A DNA stretch of 64,000 nucleotides from the NCBI RefSeq assembly GCF_012530535.1, contig NZ_CP051299.1, forward strand, positions 2,294,001 to 2,358,000, written 5' to 3'. The number at the start of each line of letters is the position of its first letter. Within the stretch, counting starts at the first letter, position 1. Under the pieces are notes generated by a model. It was not told the DNA's origin. It saw only the letters and a list, made by a program, of their open reading frames with translations, and searched no databases. Source of the stretch: Microcella flavibacter (GTDB lineage: Bacteria; Actinomycetota; Actinomycetes; Actinomycetales; Microbacteriaceae). The position numbers and the translations under genes are program-made. Below, one piece after another: positions 34,283 through 36,538 of the stretch.

Positions 34283-34693
34283 TCAGAGCGCGGTGACGCG
34301 CACCTGCGCCTTGCCCAGCACGGTGCCGCCCGCGGCGCTCACCGCGAGGTCGATGCGGGCGCCGGCCTCGTCGACGGCGCCGACGGTCGCGCGCACGGTG
34401 ACGGTGGCGCCCTCGGTCGGGTCGACGACGACGGGGCGCGTGAACCGCACGCCGTAGCCGCTCACCCAGCCGCGGCCGTCGAGCCAGTCGACGACGGGCT
34501 GCACGGCGAGGCCCATGGTGAGCATGCCGTGCGCGAGCACGCCCGGCAGGCCCACCTCGGCGGCCACGTCGTCGCGGTAGTGGATGGGGTTGAAGTCGCC
34601 GCTCGCGCCCGCGTAGCGCACGAGCGAGCCGCGGTCGAGGGCGTACTCGCGCTCGGCCACGACCTGGCCGACCTCGAGCTCGGGAAGGGCCAT
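34283..34693 (-). CDS. MaoC-family (hotdog) dehydratase, HadB-like
   Basis: 136-residue single-hotdog protein with the hydratase-2 catalytic pattern: FNPIHYRDDVAAEVGLPGVL (Asp and His of the active site) and AHGMLTMG. It resembles mycobacterial HadB, the catalytic half of a (3R)-hydroxyacyl dehydratase. The ATG at 34693 overlaps by one base the stop of the HadA-like gene, which would supply the partner subunit. The same three-gene order with murB is seen in related actinobacteria as far as I recall. Confidence 0.88.
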   Translation of the reverse strand: MALPELEVGQVVAEREYALDRGSLVRYAGASGDFNPIHYRDDVAAEVGLPGVLAHGMLTMGLAVQPVVDWLDGRGWVSGYGVRFTRPVVVDPTEGATVTVRATVGAVDEAGARIDLAVSAAGGTVLGKAQVRVTAL

Positions 34694-35142
34694 CAGACGT
34701 CGACCCCTCGCACCACGAGCGTCGAGACGGCGGTGACGACGGGCGCGCCGTCCGCGTCGACGATCGACGACTCGGCCGTCACCATGCTGTTGCCGCCGAG
34801 GCTCTTCACGCTCGTGACGCGCAGCGTGGCGGTCAGCTCGTCGCCGGCCACGACGGGGCGCGCATAGTCGAAGCGCTGCTCGCCGTGCACGACGCGGCTG
34901 AAGTCGATGCCGCCGTCGGGCTCGGCCAGCAGCTGCGCGAGCGTCGCCTCCTGCACCACGACAGGGAAGGTCGGCGGGGCGACGACGTCGGCGAAGCCGG
35001 CCGCGCGGGCCGCCTCGGGGTCGTGGTGGATGGGCGCGGTCGCGAGCACGGCGCGGGCGAACTCGCGCACCTTCTCGCGCCCGACGAGGTAGGGCGCGGT
35101 CGGCGGGAACGCGCGCTCGGTGAGGCTGGGATTCACGGGCAC
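34693..35142 (-). CDS. FAS1-type MaoC N-terminal dehydratase domain protein, HadA-like
   Basis: 149-residue hotdog protein lacking the full catalytic His/Asp motif. It has APIHHDPEAARAAGFADVVAPPTF and FDYARPVVAGDELTATLRV, typical of the substrate-holding subunit HadA/HadC. The adjacent HadB-like gene (1-bp overlap) would complete a heterodimeric hydroxyacyl dehydratase. Its pathway here is not clear, as this lineage is not known to make mycolic acids. ATG at 35142. Confidence 0.87.
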   Translation of the reverse strand: MPVNPSLTERAFPPTAPYLVGREKVREFARAVLATAPIHHDPEAARAAGFADVVAPPTFPVVVQEATLAQLLAEPDGGIDFSRVVHGEQRFDYARPVVAGDELTATLRVTSVKSLGGNSMVTAESSIVDADGAPVVTAVSTLVVRGVDV

Positions 35143-36207: not shown

Positions 36208-36291
36208 CTACTGGCAGCTCTCGCACTGGAGCATGTCCATCGGGTCGACGGGCACGGCGTAGCCGCCGATGGTCTCGTTGTCGTTGTCCAT
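36208..36291 (-). CDS. 27-residue CXXC-ended peptide, unrecognised
   Basis: A short gene that length cut-offs would miss. ATG at 36291 follows a perfect AAGGAGGT at 36296-36303. The product starts MDNDNETIGGYAV, continues PVDPMDMLQ and ends CESCQ before TAG. It is acidic (five Asp, two Glu, no Lys or Arg), and its only cysteines form a C-terminal CXXC. A promoter with -35 ATGACA and -10 TATAGT lies upstream, overlapped by a 24-bp palindrome, and a strong terminator follows. The tail resembles the redox tail of ribonucleotide reductase large subunits; it could also be a metal-binding or modified peptide. I do not recognise the family. Confidence 0.72.
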   Translation of the reverse strand: MDNDNETIGGYAVPVDPMDMLQCESCQ

Positions 36292-36364
36292 GGGGACCTC
36301 CTTCGTCGTGCTGCTGCGTGGTGCTGCGGTCTGGGGTTCACCGGCTGTTCGTCGGTGGAGTCAC

Positions 36365-36398
36365 ACTATATAACGGGAATGACAGGGGTGTCATTCCC
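36365..36398 (-). promoter_or_regulatory. Promoter of the CXXC peptide gene with 24-bp palindromic operator
   Basis: On the minus strand: -35 ATGACA (36389-36394), 18-bp spacer, -10 TATAGT (36365-36370). The palindrome GGGAATGACA / TGTCATTCCC (36375-36384 and 36389-36398, GGGG between, arms perfect) covers the -35 and most of the spacer, where a dimeric repressor would block polymerase. Confidence 0.7.
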
Positions 36399-36538
36399 CT
36401 ACATCTAGTGTTTTCGGCGTGTCGCGCGATTTCTCGCGGATGCTCGGCCGCGGTCGTTCGGAGCACCGCGGCGTGTCGCGATCTCGCAGGCCCCCGCCGT
36501 AGCCTGGAGCCCAGCCCTCCTCGAGACCGAAGGTCGTC

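Follow-up and report, generated by a model that had tools for sequence, protein, structure and literature searches.

A 27-residue peptide gene of Microcella flavibacter as a probable detached, trans-acting redox tail of class I ribonucleotide reductase

The window analyzed in this study is a stretch of 64,000 nucleotides from Microcella flavibacter (contig NZ_CP051299.1, positions 2,294,001 to 2,358,000). A small gene on its minus strand encodes, by ORF translation, the peptide MDNDNETIGGYAVPVDPMDMLQCESCQ, which contains neither Lys nor Arg (Table 1). As described in the original prediction, the gene has a Shine-Dalgarno sequence, an ATG, 27 codons, and a TAG stop codon, and is preceded by a good sigma-70-type promoter with 18 nt between its hexamers (mean of shuffled sequences, 0.0). 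A Shine-Dalgarno-like motif was found in 74/80 related stand-alone loci versus 142/1539 control stretches. A strong terminator had also been proposed; the stable hairpin behind the stop codon agrees with this, but a U-tract is lacking and a simple terminator scan found no site at the hairpin, which is probably a terminator of the kind without a U-tract. Pfam and NCBIfam gave no match for the peptide or for its cis counterpart described below, and Rfam, applied to the whole window at the gathering threshold, returned four tRNAs and nothing else.

Table 1. Features of the stand-alone peptide locus (positions in the window)
Feature	Position	Strand	Basis or remark
Stand-alone RNR tail peptide gene, 27 codons + TAG	36208..36291	-	ORF, conservation, selection
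Shine-Dalgarno sequence AAGGAGGT	36296..36303	-	4 nt 5' of ATG
-10 hexamer TATAGT	36365..36370	-	Inside NrdR-type box 2; promoter scan
-35 hexamer ATGACA	36389..36394	-	Promoter scan
GC-rich hairpin 3' of stop codon	36142..36189	-	Folding, -36.9 kcal/mol, z -4.55; without U-tract
NrdR-type box 2	36363..36378		12/16 to NrdR consensus
NrdR-type box 1	36396..36411		12/16 to NrdR consensus; its start is 33 bp from that of box 2
Perfect inverted repeat AATGACA-N4-TGTCATT	36378..36395		Between boxes; overlaps -35 element

When 60 relatives were searched, a full-length copy of the peptide was found in 25 of the 26 Microcella genomes (M. flavibacter included), and the remaining one, G020 (75% complete), gave a partial match only. 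Family-wide, peptide matches at E 0.01 were present in 177/398 Microbacteriaceae genomes and 41/85 genera, a tally that also counts the cis tails behind nrdA. Exactly 27 codons were found in 76 of the 80 stand-alone loci kept, which yielded 64 distinct sequences. Pooled pS and pN among these were 0.358 and 0.076, respectively (uncorrected ratio, 0.21), and Y11, P14, D16, P17, M18, D19, L21, Q22, C23, S25, C26, and Q27 were invariant, so that both cysteines near the C-terminus were kept in every sequence. The peptide gene is thus real, conserved beyond chance, and under purifying selection; the search for homologues and the selection analysis suggested with the prediction both came out in its favor.

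The prediction had compared the peptide with the mobile redox tail of the large subunit of ribonucleotide reductase (RNR). A second match to the peptide in the same genome (72% identity over residues 10-27) was located directly behind the RNR barrel domain, approximately 1.7 Mb from the stand-alone gene along the contig. The large subunit encoded there, NrdA, has 821 amino acids and ends in KGFGFGGAKAGS, without tail cysteines. It is followed by a separate gene that overlaps the nrdA stop codon by one base and encodes the cis tail MSGTATAPVATTPATEYFAAESYSYVVPIDPMDELHCESCQ, with nrdB downstream. NrdA is the sole enzyme of the PF02867 type found in this genome. Its nearest solved structure is 5im3, with whose conserved cysteines C227, C441, and C456 are aligned; these cysteines and the YY pair at 756-757, all retained, are what we take to be active-site residues. 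The nearest solved structures to NrdB were 1syy (best) and 4d8f, presumably the Chlamydia trachomatis R2. NrdB shares the Phe of 1syy at a position occupied by Tyr in 2ani, and is therefore class Ic-like. The enzyme served by the peptide therefore has the active-site cysteines, the tyrosine pair, and the small subunit of a class I RNR. The NCBIfam NrdH model had no match in this genome. In another Microcella genome (G003), a 114-codon frame (L026 2597-2941) ends in VPVDPADETNCESCQ, an RNR-like tail on a different small protein.

In other families of the order, the tail was fused in frame to NrdA in 23 of the 24 close NrdA regions fetched, and these fused tails hold the same sequence block as the peptide, for example GVACPVDPMERLQCESCQ and ...TEMVGGVACPVDPMERLQCESCQ. 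When 396 genomes of the order were searched with a profile, matches were obtained in the M. flavibacter genome and in 30 genomes outside Microbacteriaceae, in 29 of which the match lies in a frame of 869-1108 codons. The other one, in a frame of 109 codons, belongs to G757 (L353), the exception among the fused regions, where the tail is in a frame other than that of nrdA; this suggests either a linker frameshift or an error in the sequence. Judged from sequence, the peptide and the C-terminal redox tail of class I NrdA are homologous, and in this respect the prediction held. In a tree built from about 205 NrdA residues, the 63 Microbacteriaceae sequences grouped in a single clade apart from 22 fused sequences (support 0.79), suggesting that detachment of the tail probably took place a single time, at the root of this Microbacteriaceae branch. 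Because the peptide has a separate gene and is not covalently part of the large subunit, we do not file it as a conventional class I tail.

We then considered 140 Microbacteriaceae genomes that were at least 90% complete. An NrdA of this type (at least 74% identity) was encoded in 63 of them, and the other 77 had distant RNRs only (best identity about 29-33%). A peptide match was present in 63/63 genomes of the former group versus 0/77 of the latter, as found by comparing the two match lists by hand. The nrdA regions were fetched for all 63 genomes, and none of the split NrdAs had a Cys in the last 60 residues. A separate tail ORF was found behind nrdA in 59/63 genomes, and a copy away from nrdA was likewise placed in 59/63. 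Beyond these latter 59, G064, G144, and G193 had two or more peptide matches each; G151 (97% complete) had the cis copy only, implying that a remote copy may not be universal. In four genomes (G101, G170, G184, and G063), reading of the nrdA-nrdB junctions revealed no cis tail, and the copies were elsewhere; G101, G184, and G063 had exactly one peptide match each. The last of these (L304) is a reduced genome in one contig of 927,303 bases, with a tail-less NrdA and a single remote peptide. Since the remote copies are the sole source of a tail found in these four genomes, action in trans is the simplest reading. The motif [RK][RKG]GF[GA] occurs near the C-terminus of all 63 split NrdAs, in a linker that is otherwise variable (e.g., L022 6560-6637); it is repeated in many fused relatives and, by that pattern, absent in L328 and L041. 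It is possibly a docking site.

The census also bears on whether programmed frameshifting or read-through links the cis tail to NrdA, in which case the enzyme would be a conventional one and the stand-alone gene a mere accessory copy. Such joining would fit the -1 frame of 46 of the 59 cis tails, many of which show a TGATG overlap or one like it. However, overlaps of this kind also fit coupled re-initiation, five of the cis tails are in the third frame, and eight are in the same frame past a stop codon. Relative to the first base of the nrdA stop codon, mechanically picked starts ranged from -23 to +60 nt, and four of the 63 genomes have no cis tail. Programmed frameshifting was rejected as a general explanation on account of the cis tails outside the -1 frame, and we regard a joined cis tail as very unlikely.

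The control region of the peptide gene resembles that of nrdA. Box 1 and box 2 were the sole stretches of the window to reach 12/16 to the NrdR consensus. The same box spacing of 33 bp occurs upstream of nrdA in the M. flavibacter genome, with a 17-bp spacer in both promoters. A double-box pattern, fitted after the sequences had been seen, had exactly two matches in the 2.62-Mb genome, one before nrdA and one before the peptide gene, both of 47 bp; the reversed control pattern had no match in the whole genome. Box pairs bound by NrdR follow a spacer rule of 14-17 bp, and Streptomyces NrdR binds best at spacers of 15-17 bp, according to PMC12051234. The peptide gene has a box pair with a spacer within this range, and NrdR is encoded in the genome, as would be expected of a member of the NrdR regulon. 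Among the relatives, the box pair was found in 78/80 stand-alone loci (the misses being L129 and L154), and the rest of these 80 loci contained no match (1.1 million positions over both strands). Of 62 nrdA upstream regions, L292-L294 were dropped because the gene start was outside the fetched stretch; the pair was present in 53 of the 59 readable regions and had no match in the other six. Nine of 13 further loci also carried it. L299, L300, and L301 are box-like by eye, with CACCA in place of CAC[AT]A, and L304 has no such site.

The perfect inverted repeat between the two boxes is absent from the nrdA promoter of the same genome and has one other site in that genome, with one mismatch. Similar inverted repeats occur in related stand-alone promoters. 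The repeat is possibly the site of a second regulator.

Stand-alone and cis copies also differ in sequence. Directly after PMD, 79/80 stand-alone copies have L, M, or F and 46/59 cis copies have D or E, a difference that hints at separate roles; L is found there in 59 of the best 80 of 334 viral copies. This signature and the extra inverted repeat would be in keeping with a competitive regulator that, in the manner of Sml1, occupies the tail site on NrdA and restrains RNR, leaving reduction to the cis tail. We consider such a regulator improbable. Both cysteines are present in all 64 distinct sequences, and the nrdA-type operator pattern on the peptide gene means that the peptide should rise together with the enzyme. 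In addition, the four genomes without a cis tail must obtain their tail from the remote copies, which argues against Sml1-type inhibition.

The prediction had also offered other roles, among them a small thiol or metal buffer and a precursor modified by the APH-fold kinase encoded next to the gene. The APH-fold assignment of that neighbor rests on motifs seen by eye, with no Pfam match at E 0.001, and an APH-like neighbor is close to the gene in just 17/80 loci, which makes a modified precursor unlikely; a FAS1-dehydratase-like gene (Pfam; window 34693-35142 in M. flavibacter) is near the peptide gene in 65/80 loci. A link to the APH-like neighbor was rejected, and nothing in the sequence-based analyses pointed to a metal buffer. 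The peptide is short and acidic and matches no Pfam or NCBIfam family, as would suit a buffer, a modified precursor, or a signal with a chance likeness to an RNR tail, or a decaying remnant of nrdA. Set against this are the homology with fused NrdA tails, the strict co-occurrence with tail-less NrdA, the operator pattern common to nrdA, the purifying selection, and the rarity of the APH-like neighbor, and we hold another role or a remnant to be extremely unlikely. A remnant of a lost gene was rejected on the pN/pS ratio of 0.21. Grounds named beforehand for discarding the prediction, namely that the peptide corresponds to the 3' end of a longer gene, apply in part, but as a conserved detached tail rather than a decayed remnant.

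Copies of the tail also occur on mobile elements. We found tail peptides in the Clavibacter phages CN1A and CMP1, the Pontimonas phage phiPsal1, and phage Pan2, whose host is given as Pseudanabaena; with tblastn E-values of 0.02 to 0.2, which by themselves are weak, this reading is based on the C-terminal block that they share, which runs up to a stop codon. The records of CN1A, phiPsal1, and CMP1 have no feature annotated at the tail peptide. Two Sulfolobus virus records (E 9) were taken as chance matches. Matches were found in 19 plasmid records, from Clavibacter (15), Leifsonia (3), and Gryllotalpicola (1), with tblastn E-values of 3e-4 to 0.1. One 33-residue plasmid ORF (L072 3983-4084; WP_223361114.1) is annotated as RNR subunit beta and is actually a tail peptide.

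Viral contigs contained 334 peptide relatives. Among the best 80 of these 334 loci, nrdB was in the fetched stretch of two and nrdA in none. The two are L166 (5001-6118) and L181 (5001-7103), large viral contigs of 116 and 120 kb with an nrdB of 85% and 81% identity, respectively, near the tail peptide and no nrdA found in the fetched stretch. Eight of ten neighbor proteins from seven viral loci matched PHROGs families, including terminase, portal, and major head protein, indicating that at least five loci (L186, L188, L194, L216, and L229) are phage DNA; the remaining two proteins, from L166 and L181, had no PHROGs match. A host-like NrdR-type box pair is situated close behind the tail peptide gene in nine of the best 80 of the 334 viral loci (L188 5286-5330, L222 1829-1873, L227 2838-2882, L185, L189, L193, L195, L212, and L230). 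In L188, the pair lies directly 5' of the portal gene, suggesting that phage structural genes may sense dNTP levels via the host NrdR.

Given the homology, the split genes, the loss of tail cysteines from NrdA, the common operator pattern, the purifying selection, and the genomes with remote copies only, all of them read from sequence, the peptide very probably represents the C-terminal dithiol tail of class I RNR in a detached copy that acts in trans. In class I enzymes, the active-site disulfide is reduced by a pair of cysteines at the C-terminus, which thioredoxin or glutaredoxin then re-reduces (PMC4390871, PMC5704485). We infer that the peptide is produced and that it docks and is redox-active in trans. 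NrdA of this Microbacteriaceae branch has lost the cysteine tail as a covalent part, and the tail persists as mini-genes, usually one that overlaps the end of nrdA or follows it closely, together with one or more at other sites. With each turnover completed, a free peptide would bring its CESC dithiol into the active site of NrdA and reduce the disulfide between two active-site cysteines; the peptide would then leave as a disulfide, to be re-reduced by a protein of the thioredoxin type. Docking on NrdA would be through the conserved tyrosine-VPVDPMD stretch, and the binding of a peptide of 27 residues may be weak. Through NrdR binding at the paired operator, the peptide and the enzyme would be made together when dNTPs are short.

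The peptide resembles the fused class I tail in its CxxC dithiol at the extreme C-terminus and in sharing the sequence block of its relatives' tails; unlike that tail, it has a separate gene with its own promoter, usually in at least two copies per genome, and the NrdA that it would serve ends without a tail. Published accounts treat the mobile tail as integral to the RNR large subunit (PMC4390871, PMC5704485), and a search of the open-licence literature found no paper on a free class I RNR tail. The nearest precedent is the split class II enzyme NrdJa/NrdJb of Pseudomonas aeruginosa, in which the dithiol-exchange part is likewise on a separate polypeptide that the catalytic subunit needs (PMC4520616, PMC5704485). 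NrdJa/NrdJb differs in being class II and B12-dependent, with an NrdJb of 229 residues encoded in the same operon, and the passages cited do not mention free 27-residue copies elsewhere for it. The present peptide is not of the NrdJb type, a cysteine-rich class II domain of 150-220 residues: it has 27 residues and a class I partner with NrdB. Two further systems offer partial parallels. Yeast Sml1, as the peptide would be, is a small protein separate from the RNR large subunit that it targets; it acts as an inhibitor, not as a dithiol donor. Some phage nrdA genes are split by an intervening homing endonuclease, so that NrdA is likewise encoded in separately translated parts, but that split falls in the catalytic body and releases no redox tail.

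Ribonucleotide reductase is essential. The system described here would be a split class I enzyme, and a natural enzyme with its tail in trans would make several questions testable: the route of the tail to the active site, which parts of the tail are key, and how turnover depends on tail concentration. We lean slightly toward the broader view that one actinobacterial branch relies for ribonucleotide reduction on a pool of exchangeable free redox-tail peptides, with isoforms supplied by the nrdA operon, an NrdR-controlled gene, plasmids, and phages. If this is true, free redox-tail peptides would in effect be a peptide cofactor, and a phage could boost or redirect the host enzyme by means of a 25-residue peptide without encoding a whole ribonucleotide reductase. 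The stand-alone tails of phages point to an economical form of auxiliary metabolic gene, one that is overlooked by annotation.
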